Shown here piece after piece: positions 1,199 through 10,064 of a DNA stretch of 32,271 nt. Location: NCBI GenBank assembly GCA_039961735.1, contig JABRVX010000047.1, positions 1 to 32,271 of the forward strand, read 5' to 3'. Within the stretch, counting starts at the first letter, position 1; every line of letters starts with the position of its first letter. The DNA comes from Fimbriimonadia bacterium. GTDB taxonomy: Bacteria; Armatimonadota; Fimbriimonadia; Fimbriimonadales; JABRVX01. The position numbers and the translations under genes were made by a program. The notes under the pieces were generated by a model, which saw only the letters and a list, made by a program, of their open reading frames with translations, had not been told where the DNA came from and ran no database searches.

Positions 1199-1645
1199 CT
1201 AGTCCTTCGGCTTCGCAGAGGGTACGCTTCCTGCCCCGACCAGTTTGGTCGTGACCTTCTTGCCACCGATCTCGCGCGTCCATTCGATCCCACCTTCCAC
1301 CCACCTGTATGGGCCGGTCTCGGTTCCGAGGAGTTGTGGCATCTCGGTCAGCATCTGGTTCCAGTACACCTCCGTCTTGGTGATGGTCAGGATGTGTTTC
1401 TCCTCGTCGGCCTCCCACTTGCCGTGGATGTCCAGTGCACCGGGCTGGTTTTGGTACTCCAGCCTCCAGTACTGGATCATCTTCCCGTCTGGTTGCAACA
1501 CCATAGAGCCTCCGGCTTCCTGCCCAAGAACCGTGTCTTTGAGGCTCCAGTTCCCAATCAGGGTTCTCTCTTCCCTGCCTCCGCATCCGGCCAATCCGAT
1601 CAGTGCAGCGCTCAGCAGTAGAAGCGAGAACAATCGGTTCGACAT
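1199..1645 (-). CDS. Small lipoprotein, lipocalin-like pattern, first of three
   Basis: A 148-residue predicted lipoprotein at the head of a three-gene unit. The ATG at 1645 is preceded by GGAGGTC at about 9 bp. The signal peptide ends IGLAGC, with the lipid-bearing Cys at residue 21, followed by GGREER. The mature protein starts LIGNWSLKDTVLG, then VLQPDGKMIQYWRLEY and HGKWEADEEKHILTIT. This G.W / PDG / G.W layout resembles small lipocalin-like domains known from many environmental genomes, and it recurs in the next two genes, suggesting old tandem duplication. It diverges from the PEP-CTERM gene across the 1646-1853 gap, which holds a palindrome and a sigma-54-like site. Function unknown. 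Confidence 0.8.
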   Translation of the reverse strand: MSNRLFSLLLLSAALIGLAGCGGREERTLIGNWSLKDTVLGQEAGGSMVLQPDGKMIQYWRLEYQNQPGALDIHGKWEADEEKHILTITKTEVYWNQMLTEMPQLLGTETGPYRWVEGGIEWTREIGGKKVTTKLVGAGSVPSAKPKD

Positions 1646-1788
1646 TGCATGTGACCTCCGTTCCTCTCCCCAATCCGGTCGTCGCAGGTCGAGTTTCGGG
1701 GCCCACCCCGACTGTCCTCCCGGAAGGGGAGCGGCTCCCAGCCCGGAGTGAGGGCCGCGTCATAGTCGGTGCTCCTGCATCCCTCTAG

Positions 1789-1808
1789 ATTGTGTCAATT
1801 GGCACAAT
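1789..1808. promoter_or_regulatory. 20-bp palindrome, candidate operator
   Basis: ATTGTGTCAATTGGCACAAT is a palindrome with one mismatched pair (T1795 against G1802). It lies between the divergent lipoprotein and PEP-CTERM genes and overlaps the -24 part of the sigma-54-like promoter. Its symmetry and length suit a dimeric repressor or activator site. The regulator is unknown, and part of the symmetry could be incidental to the promoter sequence. Confidence 0.5.
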
Positions 1809-1814
1809 GATTGC
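1799..1814 (+). promoter_or_regulatory. Sigma-54 (RpoN) -24/-12 promoter for PEP-CTERM gene
   Basis: The sequence TTGGCACAATGATTGC matches the RpoN consensus YTGGCACG-N4-TTGC in all core positions except the G after CAC. GG (1801-1802) and GC (1813-1814) have the exact -24/-12 spacing. Transcription would start near 1825, giving a 5' leader of about 29 nt that contains AAAGGA (1844-1849) and ends at the ATG at 1854. In several PEP-CTERM/exosortase systems, sigma-54 and the PrsK/PrsR two-component pair control PEP-CTERM genes, so the position makes biological sense. No RpoN-dependent activator is encoded in this window. Confidence 0.7.
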
Positions 1815-1853
1815 GCTGGGCTCACTAGACCCGATTGCACAGAAAGGATAGCC

Positions 1854-2975
1854 ATGCAGATCCAGAACCAATTGAAGGCTCTGCGCAGCCTAGCCTCGTT
1901 AGCCCTGTCGCTCGGGATGTGTTTGTCCGCCCAGGCTTTGGTGTGGCAGACGAAGTTCGACCTCACGTCTATTTCCTCCGAGAACTACGACCTAGCAATC
2001 GGCCCGCTTCGCGCCCACGTGGCCTATGAGCATGCGGGCCACGTCTACTACGCCACCCGGACTCCTTGGGACTCGGATTGGGCCACCGTTGACCTCGGAC
2101 CCGGAGCGACTCCCTCGGTTGCCCTTGGTCCCGACGGCACTGCCCACGTCGCGTTCGTGAATGCAGGCAGCATTCACGTCGCCTCCAGCGCGGACGGATG
2201 GGCATCTGCCCCGGTTGCAGCCGGCTTGTACGGTTCACTCGATGTGGATGGCTCCGGAGTGCTGCACCTGATGCTCGAAGGCAACTACGATGGCGACGGC
2301 TACACCGAGATTGCCCTCGTCCAGAACGCAGGTTCCGGCTGGTCCGACCTCTCCGTGTTGCACGACGGCTGGTACGATTCGGGGTCCGGCAACTACTTCT
2401 CCCAGATGTCCCTCGCGGCGCTTCCCGGCAGCGGTTACGTCTATGCGCTCGAGTCGGCGAACTGGGGCGGGAAGGTATCTTGGTCGGCCAAGTATCCCAG
2501 CGCCATTGTCCCGGGAGGCAACAACACCTCGATGGAGGTCGGCTGGAACGCCGGTTCTGAACTCTCTCGCCAAGCCATAGCGGCCGGTGATGGCCTCCTC
2601 GGATTCACCTTTGCCACCGGTGGCACCGTGTATGCCAGCACCTGCACGGCAGGCATCTGGTCGGGTTTCGAATCGCTCGGCGCCGGGGGACAGGCCACCG
2701 TGGACGCAAAGAACGGTGTTGCTGTAGCCTTTCAGAATGGTGGTGTCCTTCGGTTCGCCAAGGATGGGAGCGTTGAAACGGTCCTGTTCGAAGGCGCAGA
2801 GGTCCGCGGCATCCGGCCTTTTCTGGTATCGGAAGGCGAGGAATACTTCCTCCTTTATCGCGACGAGCAAGGTACGTTGAGCCTACTCACCACAGCGGCA
2901 GTTCCGGAACCGGGCGCAGTGACATGTCTGTTGGCGGGGGCCCTGCTTACCGCAGCACGGCGTCGCAAACGCTAA
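1854..2975 (+). CDS. Secreted PEP-CTERM sorting-domain protein
   Basis: A 373-residue exported protein. Residues 1-28 are a signal peptide (basic start, hydrophobic core, CLSAQA). The last 24 residues form a PEP-CTERM signal: VPEPGA, a hydrophobic helix, then the basic tail ARRRKR. That signal is recognised by an exosortase, which cuts and transfers proteins to the surface or polysaccharide layer. Between these lie repeated strands such as AHVAYEHAGHVYYA, AHVAFVNAGSIHVA and VLHLMLEG, suggesting a beta-propeller-like body, rich in Gly and Trp. The ATG at 1854 follows AGAAAGGATAGCC. A sigma-54-like promoter sits just upstream and a 14-bp hairpin downstream. The binding target is unknown. No exosortase gene is in the window. 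Confidence 0.85.
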   Translation: MQIQNQLKALRSLASLALSLGMCLSAQALVWQTKFDLTSISSENYDLAIGPLRAHVAYEHAGHVYYATRTPWDSDWATVDLGPGATPSVALGPDGTAHVAFVNAGSIHVASSADGWASAPVAAGLYGSLDVDGSGVLHLMLEGNYDGDGYTEIALVQNAGSGWSDLSVLHDGWYDSGSGNYFSQMSLAALPGSGYVYALESANWGGKVSWSAKYPSAIVPGGNNTSMEVGWNAGSELSRQAIAAGDGLLGFTFATGGTVYASTCTAGIWSGFESLGAGGQATVDAKNGVAVAFQNGGVLRFAKDGSVETVLFEGAEVRGIRPFLVSEGEEYFLLYRDEQGTLSLLTTAAVPEPGAVTCLLAGALLTAARRRKR

Positions 2976-2988
2976 CAGTTCCCTAACA
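2972..2988 (+). promoter_or_regulatory. Possible Pho-box-like direct repeat before phoB
   Basis: CTAACAGTTCCCTAACA is two copies of CTAACA with a 5-bp spacer (11-bp period), the same architecture as the better site before pstS. It overlaps the PEP-CTERM stop codon and lies 131 bp before the chosen phoB start. No -10 hexamer follows at the expected distance, and the hairpin at 2991-3024 comes directly after it. It may act in autoregulation or be chance. Confidence 0.3.
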
Positions 2989-2990
2989 TC

Positions 2991-3024
2991 CCCGAGAGCC
3001 CTAGTACTTGCTAGGGCTCTCGGG
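2991..3024 (+). terminator. Strong hairpin after PEP-CTERM gene
   Basis: CCCGAGAGCCCTAG pairs perfectly with CTAGGGCTCTCGGG (14 bp) around the loop TACTTG. It lies 15 bp after the stop codon, as expected for a terminator insulating the phosphate operon. No T-tract follows on either strand, so termination may be weak, factor-assisted or bidirectional. Confidence 0.6.
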
Positions 3025-3118
3025 CTACCTAGGACCCGTCTGTGGTTAGGTTGTGCAGGTATGCTATTACCAACGCAGCGGGGCAGGGCCCGCCCACCAG
3101 AACGTCGGAGGTTGCGCG

Positions 3119-3805
3119 TTGGGAAAGGCGAGCATCCTAGTGGTTGACGACGAGGAAGACATCCGCGAGATGATCCGCTACAACCTCGAGCGCGAGGGGT
3201 ATTACGTTCGGTGTGTGGAAACCGGGGAGGCCGCCGTTTCAGCAGCTAAGGCGAAACCTCCGAGCCTGATCGTTCTGGATTTGATGCTGCCTGGGTTGGA
3301 CGGCCTTGAAGTGTGCCGAGTTCTGAAACGGGAGCCGAGGACCGCGAGCATCCCGATCATCATGCTCACTGCACGCGGTGAAGAAGCCGATATCGTAGTA
3401 GGCCTGGAGCTGGGGGCGGACGACTACATCACAAAACCGTTCAGCCCTCGCGTTCTGAATGCCAGGATCCGTGCAGTGTTGAGGCGTGCCGCCATGGAGC
3501 AGGTCGGGGAAGACACGCAGATCGAGATCGGCACTCTGGTAATAGATCCGCGCAGGCATGAGGTACTGCTGGACGGTCAGATACTAGATCTCACGGCTAC
3601 CGAGTTTCGCATTCTTCACTACCTGGCCCGAAAGCGGGGCTGGGTGTTCACGCGGGACCAGATCGTGAACGCTGTTCACCGACACGACTATCCTGTCACC
3701 GATAGATCCGTAGATGTGCATATCGTGTCGCTGCGTCGGAAGCTCGGGGCTGCAGCCAATCTCATCGAGACCGTGCGGGGCGTGGGATACCGCTTCCAAG
3801 GGTAA
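3119..3805 (+). CDS. phoB: Phosphate regulon response regulator PhoB
   Basis: An OmpR/PhoB-family response regulator of 228 residues. The receiver domain (about 4-120) has acidic residues D10 and D11, phospho-acceptor D54 in LIVLDLMLP, T84 in MLTAR and K106 in ITKPF. The winged-helix DNA-binding domain (about 132-228) ends with VDVHIVSLRRKLG and TVRGVGYRF. I chose the TTG at 3119 because GGAGG lies 8 bp before it and the protein then starts next to the receiver; a GTG at 3053 would add 22 unrelated residues. The stop overlaps the phoR start (TAATG). When phosphorylated by PhoR under phosphate limitation it should activate pst transcription. The gene order with phoR and pst makes PhoB rather than another OmpR-type regulator very likely. 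Confidence 0.93.
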   Translation: MGKASILVVDDEEDIREMIRYNLEREGYYVRCVETGEAAVSAAKAKPPSLIVLDLMLPGLDGLEVCRVLKREPRTASIPIIMLTARGEEADIVVGLELGADDYITKPFSPRVLNARIRAVLRRAAMEQVGEDTQIEIGTLVIDPRRHEVLLDGQILDLTATEFRILHYLARKRGWVFTRDQIVNAVHRHDYPVTDRSVDVHIVSLRRKLGAAANLIETVRGVGYRFQG

Positions 3806-5586
3806 TGCGCAGCCGAAGACTGCTCGGAGCGCCTCCTTTTGTTCAGCTTCTGCTTTACTTCGTCGTCGCTTTCGTCCTGTCGTATCTGATCGAACAGCAT
3901 GATGCTTCGGAGCGAAGGTCTCTCAAGCTCGACGAGCTCGCCAGAGTGGCCGAGATGCTGTCCGACCGGCTGGGCTACGACCCTGCAGCTACCGACGTCG
4001 GCCACGTCGCTGATGTACTCCGAACCTACGAGCGCCACATAGGATACCGATACACACTCGTCGGCCCCGATGGCCTCGCGATCCTGGACTCGCGGTTTCG
4101 CGCCAAGTACGTGGGTGACCTATCGGACAGGCCGGACGTTGCCGCGGCTCTGGGCGGGCAGGCCGAGCCACACGTGCGCACTTACTACGACACCGATCGG
4201 GGCCTGTTGAGCGCAGCCGCACCGCTGCCCACACGGACCGGCCCAGGCAGAGCGGTTCGCGTTGTCGCTTCGGCGGCCTCGGTGGGCATCGTGTTCGGTG
4301 ACGTTCTGATGCGGGCCACCATCCTCTCACTAGCCGCTTGGGGCGTCACGGCGCTGTGCTTGCACGCCACGTCCCGACGACTGGCCGATGACCTGGGCGA
4401 CCTGGAGAATGGTGTGCGTGCCTTCGGGCAAGGTCGGCTCTCTGCCCGCATCCCGCCCCCGGGATCCGAGGAATTGGACAACCTGGTGGAGCTTCTTAAC
4501 ACCATGGCGGAGCGCCTAGACAGGGAACGGGCGCAGATGGCGGAGCGCCAAAGCGAGCTCGATGCCGTGCTCGCTGGAATGGTGGAAGGCGTGATCGCCG
4601 TGGACCTAGACGATCGGCTGCTCGCTGCCAACCCAGCGGCCGAACGATTCGTAAGCTTCGATTCCGACCGTTGCCTCGGTCTACCCCTGCAAGGAGTGGC
4701 GCGGAACTCGGAGCTGAACCGAATGCTGGAGCAAGTACGTGAGAAGGGGGGGCCGGTGTACGGGGAAGTCGTTCTCCGCGAGGGCCAGGAGGAGCGAACC
4801 CTCGAGGTGACGGCAAGCCCACTGCGCGACCAGCAAGGATATCTCATGGGCACCCTGATTGTTCTGCACGACATCACTCAGATCCGCAAGCTGGAGAGAG
4901 TCCGTCGAGACTTCGTGGCAAACGTGTCACACGAGCTGAAGACACCGGTCAGCACCATCCGCGGGGCCGTGGAGACTCTTCTGAGCGGGGCAGCAGACAA
5001 ACCGCAGTCCAGGGAGCGCTTCCTCGCGATGATTGATCGAAGTGCCGCGCGCCTGAGCGCGATCATCGAGGACTTGCTCAGCCTGGCTCGGCTGGAAGAG
5101 ACGGGGGGAGGCGGAGTTCCCCTCAAACTACAGCCTCTGCTGCCCTGCCTAAAGGAAGCAATTTTGGACACCGCTCCGCTCGCGGATGCCAGCCAGGTAA
5201 CCGTGAGGTTGTCGTGCCCCGAGAACCTCGCTGCGCCGATCAACCCGCCCCTGCTCGTGCAAGCCGTGGTCAACCTGTTGGACAACGCCATACGCCACAG
5301 CCCTTCCGGGGAGGCCGTGGACCTGGAGGCGGAAGCGGTCGGCAACGACGTGGAGATCCGAGTTCGCGATCGTGGCCCAGGGATCGAGGAGCGACACTTG
5401 CCCAGGCTCTTCGAGCGCTTCTATCGGGTGGATGTGGCGCGGAGTCGGAAGGAGGGCGGTACGGGGTTGGGGCTCTCGATCGTGAAGCACGTCGCGCAAG
5501 TGCACCGGGGTCGAGTCGGTGCCGAAAGCGTGTTGGGACAAGGCAGCACGTTCACAGTACGAATCCCGTCCGGGGGTGGGGGGTAG
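3805..5586 (+). CDS. phoR: Phosphate sensor histidine kinase PhoR
   Basis: A 593-residue membrane histidine kinase that phosphorylates PhoB when phosphate is scarce. Order of parts: TM1 about 9-27; an extracytoplasmic sensor of about 140 residues; TM2 about 166-186; a HAMP linker; a PAS domain about 250-355 (LDAVLAGMVEGVIAVD onward); HisKA with the phospho-accepting His376 in VSHELKTP; then the ATPase domain with N490 in NLLDNAIRH, the DRGPG box near 522 and GGTGLGLS near 551. The long periplasmic loop resembles the larger PhoR/PnpS type (TM-sensor-TM-HAMP-PAS) rather than the short E. coli form. The ATG at 3805 overlaps the phoB stop, so translation is probably coupled. Confidence 0.93.
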   Translation: MRSRRLLGAPPFVQLLLYFVVAFVLSYLIEQHDASERRSLKLDELARVAEMLSDRLGYDPAATDVGHVADVLRTYERHIGYRYTLVGPDGLAILDSRFRAKYVGDLSDRPDVAAALGGQAEPHVRTYYDTDRGLLSAAAPLPTRTGPGRAVRVVASAASVGIVFGDVLMRATILSLAAWGVTALCLHATSRRLADDLGDLENGVRAFGQGRLSARIPPPGSEELDNLVELLNTMAERLDRERAQMAERQSELDAVLAGMVEGVIAVDLDDRLLAANPAAERFVSFDSDRCLGLPLQGVARNSELNRMLEQVREKGGPVYGEVVLREGQEERTLEVTASPLRDQQGYLMGTLIVLHDITQIRKLERVRRDFVANVSHELKTPVSTIRGAVETLLSGAADKPQSRERFLAMIDRSAARLSAIIEDLLSLARLEETGGGGVPLKLQPLLPCLKEAILDTAPLADASQVTVRLSCPENLAAPINPPLLVQAVVNLLDNAIRHSPSGEAVDLEAEAVGNDVEIRVRDRGPGIEERHLPRLFERFYRVDVARSRKEGGTGLGLSIVKHVAQVHRGRVGAESVLGQGSTFTVRIPSGGGG

Positions 5587-5613
5587 CGCAGTCGGACTCT
5601 GGTGGCCCTAGCA

Positions 5614-5645
5614 TTAACGAAATTCTAACAATAGAGGCATAGAAT
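5614..5645 (+). promoter_or_regulatory. Candidate Pho box and -10 of pstS
   Basis: TTAACG (5614-5619), five bases AAATT, then CTAACA (5625-5630) form a direct repeat with 11-bp period, like the TTAACA-type repeats bound by PhoP/PhoB regulators. Nine bases later TAGAAT (5640-5645) matches the -10 consensus TATAAT in five of six positions. There is no good -35, as is usual for activator-dependent pho promoters. The site is in the 77-bp phoR-pstS gap and would let pstSCAB-phoU be induced apart from phoBR. Confidence 0.6.
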
Positions 5646-5678
5646 TCGAGTATCGAGTTTCAGATGGAAGGTGATCAT

Positions 5679-6716
5679 ATGGTACAGGCGTTTGGCAGGA
5701 ATCTGTGGTTAGGCGGACTCGCCCTGGTCGGCATCGCGATAGTGGCCGGCTGTGGTGGGGCCTCGACATCGGAAAGCGGCGAGAAGAGTGGCTCGAAATT
5801 GTCGGGCTCGATCAGCATAGATGGCTCCAGCACGGTCTACCCCATCAGCGAGGCTGCGGCCGAGGAGTTCATGAAGGAGAACCCGGACGTGCGCGCGTCG
5901 GTTGGCACGTCGGGTACAGGTGGCGGTTTCAAGAAGTTCGTCGCCGGCGAGACGGACATCAGCGACGCTTCCCGGCCGATCCAGATAGAAGAGATGGAGA
6001 TCGCCAAGAAGAACGGCATCGAGTTCATCGAACTGCCGGTCGCATTCGACGGCCTCTCCGTGGTAGTGCACAAAGACAACGACTTCGTCGACTACCTGAC
6101 GGTAGAGGAGCTGAAACGCATCTGGGAGCCCGGCAGCAAGGTCCAGTACTGGAGCGACGTGCGGCCTAACTGGCCCAGGCAGAAGATCAGGTTGTTCGGG
6201 CCGGGTACCGACTCGGGTACGTACGACTACTTTACAGAGGCAGTCGTGGGCGAGCAGAAGAAGTGCCGACCGGACTTCCAGCCCAGCGAGGATGACAACG
6301 TGTTAGTGCAGGGAGTGTCGGGCGAGAAGTACGCGCTCGGATACTTCGGATATGCCTACTATGCAGAGAACGCCGACAAGCTGAAGGTCGTCCCCATTGA
6401 CGGTGGAAGCGGTCCTATCACTCCCACGGAGGAGACTATCCGGAACGGACAGTACACCCCGCTAGCACGCCCGCTCTTCATCTACGTCAGTACCAAGGCG
6501 GCAGAGCGACCGGAAGTACAGGCCTTCATAAAGTTCTACATGCAGAACGCCGAGAAGCTGGTCGCCGAAGTGAAGTACGTTCCGCTCCCGGCAAACGTGT
6601 ACGAGATCGCTTTGGAGCGCTTCGAGAAGAGGAAGACTGGATCGGTCTTCGAGGGGAAGCATCAGGTAGGTCTTTCTCTGGAGCAGCTCATGAAAACAGA
6701 AGAGGAATCGCAATAG
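5679..6716 (+). CDS. pstS: Phosphate ABC transporter substrate-binding protein PstS
   Basis: A high-affinity periplasmic phosphate binder of 345 residues that delivers phosphate to PstCA. A lipoprotein signal ends IAIVAGC (Cys25), so it is membrane-anchored, as is common outside enteric bacteria. Phosphate-contacting family motifs are visible: DGSSTVYP near the start of the mature protein, then [20 protein letters not shown] and [11 protein letters not shown] chose the ATG at 5679 because GGAAGGTGA lies just before it; the in-frame ATG at 5664 is part of that ribosome-binding sequence and would add five residues. The C-terminal region ([16 protein letters not shown]) is typical of the family. 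It leads the transporter operon behind the candidate Pho box. Confidence 0.95.
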
Positions 6717-6732
6717 GAGTGATTGGTAGCAG

Positions 6733-7668
6733 TTGACAACGGCTGACCAGGCGATAGGGGGCCGCTCGGTGAGTGGCCTGCAGGCCAAACGGTTCCGATG
6801 GACGGAGTTCTTGCACGAGAACGGCCTCCTTCTCAGCGCCATGGTGTCGATTGCCACTACCATAGCCATCATCTGGGTGCTGGCAACGGAGAGCTTCACC
6901 TTCTTCAAGCAGGTATCTATCTGGGAGTTCCTGACTGGTACGAAGTGGACGCCGCTCTTCAAGCCACAGCACTTCGGTGTGTTGCCACTGGTATGCGGCA
7001 CCATGTTGATCACCGTCGGAGCGGCCCTCGTGGCCATACCTATCGGTGTCGGGTGCGGGATGTACCTAAGCGAGTATGCCACGCCGCGCGTACGAGCAGC
7101 CGTCAAGCCGATCCTGGAAATCCTAGCCGGGATTCCGACAGTGGTGTACGGCTACTTCGCAGTCGCGACCGTCACCCCGTTTCTTCGCCTCGTCCTTCCC
7201 CAGACGGAGGTCTTCAACGCACTCAGCGCCTCTCTGGTGGTAGGTATCATGATTCTCCCCATGGTGGCATCGCTCTCCGACGACGCCTTTCGAGCGGTGC
7301 CGAATTCGCTTCGAAACGCGGGGTTTGCCGTAGGCGCGACGAGGAGCGAGGTTAGCGCGCGGATTGTTTTCCCGGCGGCCCTCTCGGGAGTGTTAGCATC
7401 GTTCGTGCTGGCAGTATCGCGTGCAATAGGCGAGACGATGGCGGTTACGTTGGCCGCGGGCGCATCTCCCAAAATGACGCTAAACCCATTGGAGAGCGTG
7501 CAGACGATGACTGCCTATATCGTCCAGATCAGCCTAGGCGACACTCCGCAAGGGACCATCGAGTACCAGACCCTGTTCGCGGTGGGCATGCTGCTGTTCC
7601 TGATAACGCTCGCGCTCAACATACTCTCGCAGCGCATCCTTCGACGCTACCGAGAGGTGTACGAATGA
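6733..7668 (+). CDS. pstC: Phosphate ABC transporter permease PstC
   Basis: An inner-membrane permease of about 311 residues with six predicted TM helices, pairing with PstA. PstC-like marks are the early [10 protein letters not shown]...[11 protein letters not shown] segment, [15 protein letters not shown], and the cytoplasmic coupling loop [15 protein letters not shown] that contacts PstB. The start is uncertain. TTG at 6733 has GGAG 13 bp upstream; a GTG at 6769 follows AGGGGG at 7 bp and would shorten the protein by 12 residues. The stop overlaps pstA by 4 bp (ATGA). It begins 16 bp after pstS. Confidence 0.93.
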
Positions 7669-8540
7669 GCGGACTCGTCCTGTCGAAGGGTAGCGTTGCG
7701 AAACGACGGCACGCCGATCGTATCTTCTACCTACTGTGTCTAGCCTCGACACTAGTCGGAGTAGTTCTGCTTGCCACGCTCCTGATCGCCGTGTACCAAC
7801 AAGGGGCCAAGTGGCTGACGCTCAAGTTCCTGACCAGCTTTCCCTCTAGGTTTCCGGCTGAAGCGGGCATCAAGTCCGCGCTGTACGGGTCCGTGTGGAA
7901 CATTCTGCTGACCGCCGCGTTCGCACTGCCTATCGGCATCGGCGCCGCCATCTACCTCGAGGAGTATCCCAAGCGTGGGCGCCTCAGCTCCTTTATCGAG
8001 GTGAACATCGCCAACCTCGCCGGCGTGCCGTCCATCGTGTACGGCATCCTCGGGCTTGCCATCTTCGTGCGAACGATGATGCTCGGGCGCAGCGTGTTAG
8101 CAGGCGCTCTCACGATGGCGTTGCTGATCCTCCCGGTGATCATCATCTCGGCGCGCGAGGCGATCCGTGCAGTACCATCCTCCATACGGATGGCCGCATT
8201 CGCCCTCGGCGCCACGCGATGGCAGACCATCTGGTCCCATGTGCTACCGTCGGCCCTCCCGGGCATACTCACGGGTGTGATCCTGTCCCTTTCGCGTGCC
8301 ATAGGTGAGACGGCTCCGCTCATCATGATCGGCGCATTCGCCTACGTGGCCTTCGTGCCTGCCGGCCCGATGGACAAGTTCACCGTACTACCCATCCAGA
8401 TCTACAACTGGGCGAGCCGACCTCAGGAGGACTTCCGTGCCTTGGCGGCTGCGGGTATCATCGTCCTTCTTGCCGTGCTGCTCAGCATGAACGCCGCCGC
8501 CGTAGTCATCCGGCAGCGGTTTCAGAGGTTCCGCCCATGA
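7665..8540 (+). CDS. pstA: Phosphate ABC transporter permease PstA
   Basis: The second permease half, 291 residues with about six TM helices. It has the PstA segment [10 protein letters not shown]...[13 protein letters not shown], the loop [18 protein letters not shown] and the coupling motif [15 protein letters not shown]. The start overlaps the pstC stop and the end overlaps the pstB start, both as ATGA, so stoichiometric production of the membrane complex is likely. With PstC it forms the channel through which phosphate passes upon ATP hydrolysis by PstB. Confidence 0.94.
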
Positions 8541-9364
8541 GCGATGTGATACTGACTACCAAGCTCCCGGAGCCGCCACAGCGCGCGGCAGAGCAGCAAC
8601 CCGTGGAATCCGCAGAGACGATCCTGGAGACGCGCAGCCTCACCGTCCGATACGGCTCGGAGGCCGCGGTCAAGGACGTCAGCCTGTGCATTCCCGAGCG
8701 ACGCATCACAGCTATCATCGGACCCTCGGGATGTGGCAAGAGCACGCTGCTGCGGACCTTCAACCGCATGAACGACTTCATCCCCAGCGTCTCGATGTCT
8801 GGCCAAGTGCTGTATCGAGGCCAGAGCATCTTCGCTCCGGAAGTGGACCCGGTGGAGGTGCGACGGCGCATCGGCATGGTCTTTCAGAAACCCAATCCCT
8901 TCCCGAAGAGCGTGTTCGACAACGTGGCTTGGGGCCCGGCCATCAACGGCGCTTCGCGTTCGTCCCTTCGCGAAGTCGTCGAGACCTCGTTGCGCAAAGC
9001 CGCCCTGTGGGACGAGGTGAAGGACAAGCTACACCAAAGCGGCATGGCCCTCTCCGGCGGACAGCAACAACGACTCTGCATCGCTCGCGCCATCGCGATG
9101 GAGCCAGAAGTGGTGCTCATGGATGAGCCCTGCTCGGCGCTCGACCCAACCGCAACCGCGAGAATCGAGGAGCTTATTATCGAACTGAAGGAACGCTACA
9201 CCATCGTGATCGTAACGCATAACATGCAGCAAGCGGCTCGCGTGTCGGACTTCACAGCGTTTTTGTGCGACGGCGAGCTGATCGAATACGGTCCGACAAC
9301 GCAGGTTTTCACTCTACCTGCAGAGAAACGAACCGAAGATTACATTACGGGCCGGTTCGGATAG
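8537..9364 (+). CDS. pstB: Phosphate ABC transporter ATPase PstB
   Basis: A cytoplasmic ATPase subunit of 275 residues. Walker [10 protein letters not shown] is near residue 62; the Q-loop ([10 protein letters not shown]), signature LSGGQQQR, Walker B VVLMDEP and the switch His in VTHNMQQA follow in order. KPNPFPKS after the Q-loop and the FNRMND segment after Walker A are characteristic of PstB rather than other ABC ATPases. The N-terminus carries about 30 extra polar residues compared with shorter homologues; ATGA coupling to pstA nevertheless supports this start. It powers phosphate import through PstCA. Confidence 0.95.
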
Positions 9365-9374
9365 GAGCATGGAA

Positions 9375-10064
9375 ATGCGGCGGCACTTGGAGCGCGAGAT
9401 AGACGCGCTGAGAAAGAAACTGCTCTCGGTCGGCGCTCTGGTCGAGGAGTCGGGCAAGATGGCCATCGAGGCTCTCATGACCCGCGACGTAGAGCTTGCC
9501 GAACGCGTCATCGAGACCGACGAGCAGATTGATGCGATGGAGGTCGAAGTGGAGGAGGAGTGCCTGAAGGTGCTGGCACTCCACCAGCCGGTGGCTATTG
9601 ATCTGCGGTACGTGGTCGCCATGCTCAAGATCAACAACGACCTGGAACGCATCGGAGACATTGCCACCAACATCGCCGAGCGTGCCATCTACCTTTCGCA
9701 TCGTGTGAAGATTGACATTCCGCAAGACTTCGTGAGCATGAGCCGGCTGGCGCACGAGATGGTACGTGACAGCTTGGATGCGCTCGTGTACCTGGACGCG
9801 TCTCTTGCACGCAAGGTGTGCGAGATGGACGACCACGTGGATGAGTGCAACCGCCGCGTCTATGACTACGTCAAGCAGCAGCTCCTGTTAGGAACTCCGG
9901 AGGTCATGGAGCAGGTGCAACTGCTAACGGTTGCGCGCCACATCGAGCGCATCGGGGATCAGGCGACCAACATCGCAGAGGATGTCCTGTACCTGATCGA
10001 GGGAGAGATCGTGCGCCACAAGCGCCGGGACTCCTACGAAGCAACGCCCGAAGAAGTTCGCTGA
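9375..10064 (+). CDS. phoU: Phosphate signalling regulator PhoU
   Basis: A helical 229-residue protein made of two PhoU repeats (about 5-105 and 115-210). Each carries the metal-binding signature, seen here as DLERIGDIATNIAE and RHIERIGDQATNIAED. PhoU connects the Pst transporter to PhoR and represses the regulon when phosphate is plentiful. The ATG at 9375 has AGGAG 7 bp upstream; the ATG at 9369 is too close to that sequence. The gene starts 10 bp after pstB and is the last of the operon, followed by a hairpin at 10084. Length and motifs are normal. Confidence 0.94.
   Translation: MRRHLEREIDALRKKLLSVGALVEESGKMAIEALMTRDVELAERVIETDEQIDAMEVEVEEECLKVLALHQPVAIDLRYVVAMLKINNDLERIGDIATNIAERAIYLSHRVKIDIPQDFVSMSRLAHEMVRDSLDALVYLDASLARKVCEMDDHVDECNRRVYDYVKQQLLLGTPEVMEQVQLLTVARHIERIGDQATNIAEDVLYLIEGEIVRHKRRDSYEATPEEVR

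Follow-up and report, generated by a model that had tools for sequence, protein, structure and literature searches.

It is probable that positions 1799–1814 of the analysed window, i.e. the whole contig C47 with a length of 32,271 bp, represent a working sigma-54 promoter of a PEP-CTERM gene. This promoter would be opened by the only sigma-54 activator of the genome, a protein lacking a DNA-binding domain, and would belong to a small circuit serving surface and matrix genes across the Fimbriimonadales. The reading is based on the site itself, on an intact rpoN, on the sole activator with its missing domain, on the recurrence of the site before PEP-CTERM genes and on the loss of the activator together with rpoN, all of which can be read from the genome sequences. 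The features discussed are compiled in Table 1.

The site at 1799–1814 and the gene behind it

As claimed in the original prediction, a near-consensus sigma-54 site with exact -24/-12 spacing is present at 1799–1814 (TTGGCACAATGATTGC). The motif TGGCAC-N5-TTGC (1800–1814) matches the core at 10 of 10 positions and is the only exact occurrence in the window, with both strands searched. Its GG (1801–1802) and GC (1813–1814) are 10 nt apart, and -24/-12 promoters require this GG-N10-GC spacing. The site deviates at two side positions from the commonest consensus, namely A for G after CAC and G for A or T after TTGC; the same departures occur in other sites of the order (11 of 30 and 5 of 30, respectively). 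The ATG follows at a distance of 39 nt and is preceded by an AAAGGA ribosome site (1843–1848). The coordinates given in the original prediction for the transcription start (near 1825), the leader and the AAAGGA likewise agree with the sequence.

Table 1. Features around the predicted sigma-54 promoter (positions in the window)
Feature	Position	Strand	Remarks
Near-palindrome TTGTGTCAATTGGCACAA	1790..1807		8/9 pairs; TGTG-N8-CACA; overlaps -24 element
Sigma-54 (-24/-12) promoter, predicted	1799..1814	+	TTGGCAC-AATGA-TTGC; 10/10 core match
5' leader, predicted, 29 nt	1825..1853	+	from sequence; start inferred about 12 nt past the -12 GC
PEP-CTERM protein gene, 373 aa	1854..2975	+	signal peptide; VPEPGAV...ARRRKR tail
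15-bp perfect GC-rich hairpin	2991..3024	+	between PEP-CTERM gene and phoB; without T run

The protein encoded at 1854 ends with VPEPGAVTCLLAGALLTAARRRKR, in which the PEP-CTERM tail is legible by eye; the respective score was 19.2 bits in the genome search and 14.1 bits when the protein was scanned alone (cut-off 16). Outside of the signal peptide and the tail no known domain was found. In addition, no relatives of this protein were found in 60 other genomes of the order, which counts against the promoter reading. The hairpin behind the gene, which folds as RNA with -35.7 kcal/mol (z -5.7), probably marks the end of a one-gene transcript. A classical terminator scan, which requires a T run, made no call around the gene, the hairpin included.

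The divergent neighbour of the PEP-CTERM gene starts at 1645 and belongs to a row of three small genes on the minus strand (309–1645) encoding secreted or lipoprotein-like proteins, one of them with a match to DUF3994. Directly past the PEP-CTERM gene, phoB-phoR and then apparent Pst phosphate transport genes and phoU are located (3053–10064), the Pst and PhoU labels being assigned from sequence only. Furthermore, REP-like repeat units around CACGGGCGNGACGCCCGTG occupy positions 1–190, and a stretch resembling them seems to be present on contig C55 (L103, about 2011–2745).

Sigma-54 machinery of the genome and of the order

The original prediction had made its validity dependent on the presence of rpoN, and an intact rpoN was found (TIGR02395 312.7 bits, cut-off 277.35), with the RpoN box ARRTINKYR and the domains AID, CBD and DBD all present. 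The exosortase search that had also been proposed revealed one exosortase (TIGR02602 116.9 bits, cut-off 105.55; PF09721 165.8), which is encoded within an EPS cluster on contig C59. The genome contains about 50 PEP-CTERM genes.

A full sigma-54 activation domain occurs in only one protein of the genome, four other hits being weak (≤ 35 bits). This protein of 394 aa consists of a receiver and an AAA+ domain with Walker A motif and GAYTGA loop, and no DNA-binding domain or HTH was found in it. It ends with LLPQSLRAA, and the next frame starts 29 nt further on. With a receiver and an AAA+ domain and without a DNA-binding domain, it has the architecture of the group 5 (FlgR/CtcC-type) activators. 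The gene adjacent upstream encodes a kinase with PAS, HisKA and ATPase domains, which resembles AtoS/ZraS.

The samples contained no other genome of the same family (f1). Nearly all relatives possessing rpoN encode a single activator of this type, with 57–61% identity. In all 45 homologues measured in the order, the activator ends 29–37 residues past GN(V/I)REL, compared with at least 82 residues in activators of other phyla wherever the end falls within the contig; the latter were obtained in a contig search with the activator of this genome as query, in which the order itself was not among the matches. Among 73 genomes of the order, taken from a phylum sample of 251 genomes, 58 contain both rpoN and activator, 12 neither of them, 3 rpoN without a full activator and none the activator without rpoN.

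The joint loss in 12 genomes was observed in G012, G031, G037 and other genomes of family f3. Since G012 and G031 still have an exosortase, exosortase sorting in these two is independent of sigma-54. In one genome (G039), an ordinary rpoN was detected and no activator of the short kind was found, which counts against the promoter reading. G258 (C62:12595–13074) also has rpoN without the short activator; the score of this rpoN (E 3.8e-61) far exceeds those of the others, the frame comprises 387 aa, and the gene was perhaps acquired.

About 30 genomes from other families of the phylum show an activator match reaching at least residue 386 in an open frame of at most 420 aa, and the short form of the activator is therefore probably old in the Armatimonadota. 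Several of these genomes also have a second, longer activator. A wider reading is that in the free-living Fimbriimonadales, and perhaps already in the ancestor of the Armatimonadota, sigma-54 relies on a single activator lacking a DNA-binding domain, as a unit devoted to PEP-CTERM proteins and exosortase-linked exopolysaccharide; all sigma-54 promoters would then fire together from one signal, because this single activator has no DNA-binding domain. We consider the arguments for and against this wider reading to be evenly balanced.

Putative target genes and alternative readings

Exact sites with an ATG within 20–50 nt were examined in 40 relatives. A PEP-CTERM gene starts after 22 of the 127 exact sites read among the matches listed (f2 13, f3 6, f5 3), compared with 0.16 expected from random placement; for this count, tails were recognised by a text pattern and open reading frames were derived mechanically, and the related genomes are not independent of each other. 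The search for the same motif before other PEP-CTERM genes, which the original prediction had proposed for the genome, was successful there (C55) and also in three other families. In 8 genomes of family f2, the site is located 25–41 nt ahead of an EPS-export gene (Poly_export/SLBB), whose product comes close to TIGR03027 (156.5 bits, cut-off 180). The exosortase gene follows 6.4–7.1 kb downstream on the same strand in 6 of these 8 genomes, and the EPS-export gene with the site heads the exosortase cluster in this one family. At the head of the EPS cluster of the genome under study no good sigma-54 site was found. This counts against the promoter reading, and, because f2 is different in this respect, the regulon differs between the families.

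Further targets in f2 are a receiver-PilZ protein and a sigma-70-type factor. The gene of the latter lies 35–40 nt past an exact sigma-54 site in L248, L253, L265, L267 and L273, which suggests a cascade from sigma-54 to sigma-70 in this family.

Altogether, 116 site matches were obtained in f2 versus 18 in the control, among the matches listed and with overlapping ATG choices counted repeatedly. In three rpoN-less genomes of 99% completeness, 7 site matches versus 7 in the control were detected, none of them before a PEP-CTERM gene. Considering the target genes in the relatives and the lack of an excess in genomes without rpoN, sigma-54 is therefore probably active in the order and would serve surface-matrix genes. 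When the 160 nt preceding each of 31 sites were compared, no k-mer was shared beyond the level of shuffled sequences; TTTACA was detected in 1 of these 31 regions and nowhere in the window. The lack of a shared upstream motif is consistent with an activator that would act without an enhancer, although it is no proof of this.

The simplest alternative is a chance match, in which a 10-base pattern in a 3.2-Mb genome merely happens to precede the gene at 1854. In the genome (3,235,078 bp, 77 contigs, 98.9% complete), 10 exact sites are present versus 5 matches of the reversed pattern; an exact match somewhere is therefore unremarkable, but its place is remarkable. Eight of the ten exact sites are not intergenic at promoter distance, and one-mismatch sites show no enrichment genome-wide (33 versus 30 in the control). 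Both results support chance, and the latter also counts against the promoter reading. However, the two sites that do lie between genes at promoter distance, the one in the window and C55:7924, both precede PEP-CTERM genes, with 39 and 47 nt to the ATG. By simple arithmetic, about 0.012 exact sites are expected 12–160 nt ahead of any of 53 PEP-CTERM genes, against 2 observed, the second of which was found after the first had been chosen. When the upstream regions of 46 PEP-CTERM genes of this genome were inspected, the best match reached at least 10, 9 and 8 core positions in 2, 3 and 6 regions; the controls (reverse-complement, reversed and shuffled regions) yielded 0, about 0 and 1–2, and no exact matches. 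A plausible site hence stands before about 3–6 of the 46 genes tested, a small share of the set, which counts against the promoter reading. The excess over the 0.012 exact sites expected, together with the recurrence of the site throughout the order, which is far beyond expectation, makes a chance match unlikely.

Two other readings accept that the stretch is functional. The palindrome that overlaps the -24 element could be a CRP/FNR-like or other dimeric operator on a sigma-70 promoter, with the -24/-12 match as a by-product. Its pairing and its CRP-like spacing speak for this, as do two related copies elsewhere in the genome (2 mismatches each, none in the control). However, no sigma-70-type promoter was found in a scan of 1600–3200, the TTGC of the -12 element lies outside of the palindrome and would have to be matched by chance, and the other PEP-CTERM site of the genome (C55) is not preceded by a palindrome of this kind. 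Three further 18-bp palindromes of like quality occur in the window; in the genome, the sequence itself is nearly unique. We regard the operator reading as improbable, and the palindrome may rather be a candidate site for a second regulator. The remaining reading is the canonical proteobacterial system, in which enhancer-bound PrsR, paired with PrsK, activates the sigma-54 promoter. Sigma-54 sites before PEP-CTERM genes in a genome with exosortase and EPS genes were also described for this system (PMC1569441, PMC9850573), and the activator matches the PrsR model (TIGR02915) over its receiver and AAA+ parts. Its score of 383.7 bits is nevertheless below the cut-off of 502.6, the AtoC and NtrC models fit better, and it has no DNA-binding domain. 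In the kinase no strong transmembrane stretch was found, and PrsK (TIGR02916) was absent among its best 25 of 76 models. In the PrsK/PrsR regulon, motif 1 is situated about 63 nt upstream and has TTTACA as its end (Haft et al. 2006, PMC1569441); this TTTACA was missing from all but one of the 31 regions mentioned above. The search for a PrsR-type activator in this genome of 98.9% completeness therefore had a negative outcome, and control by PrsK/PrsR was rejected; this reading is already largely refuted and very unlikely.

For the preferred reading, a sigma-54 promoter opened by the sole activator, we infer the following course with regard to transcription, activation and signal. RpoN-RNA polymerase would wait at 1799–1814 as a closed complex. 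The activator, after phosphorylation, would open this complex from solution without an enhancer, and it would itself be controlled by the soluble AtoS/ZraS-like kinase of the neighbouring gene. The output at 1854 would probably be a one-gene transcript for a secreted PEP-CTERM surface protein. Across the Fimbriimonadales, the circuit would serve a part of the cell-surface and matrix programme. Certain PEP-CTERM proteins of four families would belong to it, joined in a single family by the receiver-PilZ protein, the sigma-70-type factor and the EPS-export gene at the head of the exosortase cluster.

Comparison with known systems

According to previous descriptions, PEP-CTERM genes are linked to sigma-54 in Proteobacteria only, and this in connection with PrsK/PrsR; the sigma-54 motif ("motif 2"), PrsK, PrsR and PrsT were reported only there (Haft et al. 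2006, PMC1569441). The original prediction had assumed that the same logic operates here. RpoN over PEP-CTERM genes is well supported by the sequences, whereas the PrsK/PrsR part did not hold. Its further suggestion, that such control had perhaps not been described in the phylum concerned, agrees with the literature searched, in which no report of it in Armatimonadota was found. Among papers available without subscription, a search joining Armatimonadota with RpoN gave no result; Armatimonadetes together with sigma-54 gave one match, an unrelated metagenome, and a 2025 survey of sigma-54 regulons mentions neither Armatimonadota nor PEP-CTERM. With the present case, the sigma-54 half of the system is found outside the Proteobacteria, combined with another kind of activator that apparently needs no enhancer. 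This suggests that what recurs in this control is the sigma factor and not the activator.

Like in the proteobacterial PEP-CTERM/EpsH regulon, a -24/-12 site is found a few dozen bases before PEP-CTERM genes that would form one-gene transcripts, in a genome with exosortase and EPS cluster. Unlike there, no PrsR or PrsK and no motif 1 were found, the activator has no DNA-binding domain, the phylum is a different one and only a small share of the PEP-CTERM genes has the site. A comparable single gene is pepA of Aquincola tertiaricarbonis, which also lies behind a TGGCAC -24 element; its RpoN dependence was demonstrated by a mutant and a mapped start in the presence of PrsK/PrsR (PMC9850573), whereas for the gene at 1854 it is predicted from the sequence. 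The targets proposed here, surface and exopolysaccharide functions, also correspond to the picture of sigma-54 as controller of the bacterial exterior, which was drawn with no mention of PEP-CTERM, exosortase or Armatimonadota (PMC3162934).

With this order, numerous natural examples of FlgR/CtcC-type activators become available from outside the pathogens in which these were described, and the genomes with a joint loss of rpoN and activator, including Fimbriimonas ginsengisoli, serve as comparison. FlgR has flagellar genes as targets. Activators of group 5 without a DNA-binding domain are FlgR of Helicobacter and Campylobacter and CtcC of Chlamydia; for CtcC, AtoC was reported as the closest full-length relative and late developmental genes as targets (PMC7175178, PMC7482065). 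The activator described here resembles them in its receiver and AAA+ domains, in the missing DNA-binding domain and in AtoC as the closest full-length relative. It differs from them in its putative targets, and PEP-CTERM and EPS genes under sigma-54 with a sole activator of the FlgR/CtcC type, in Armatimonadota, would be new.
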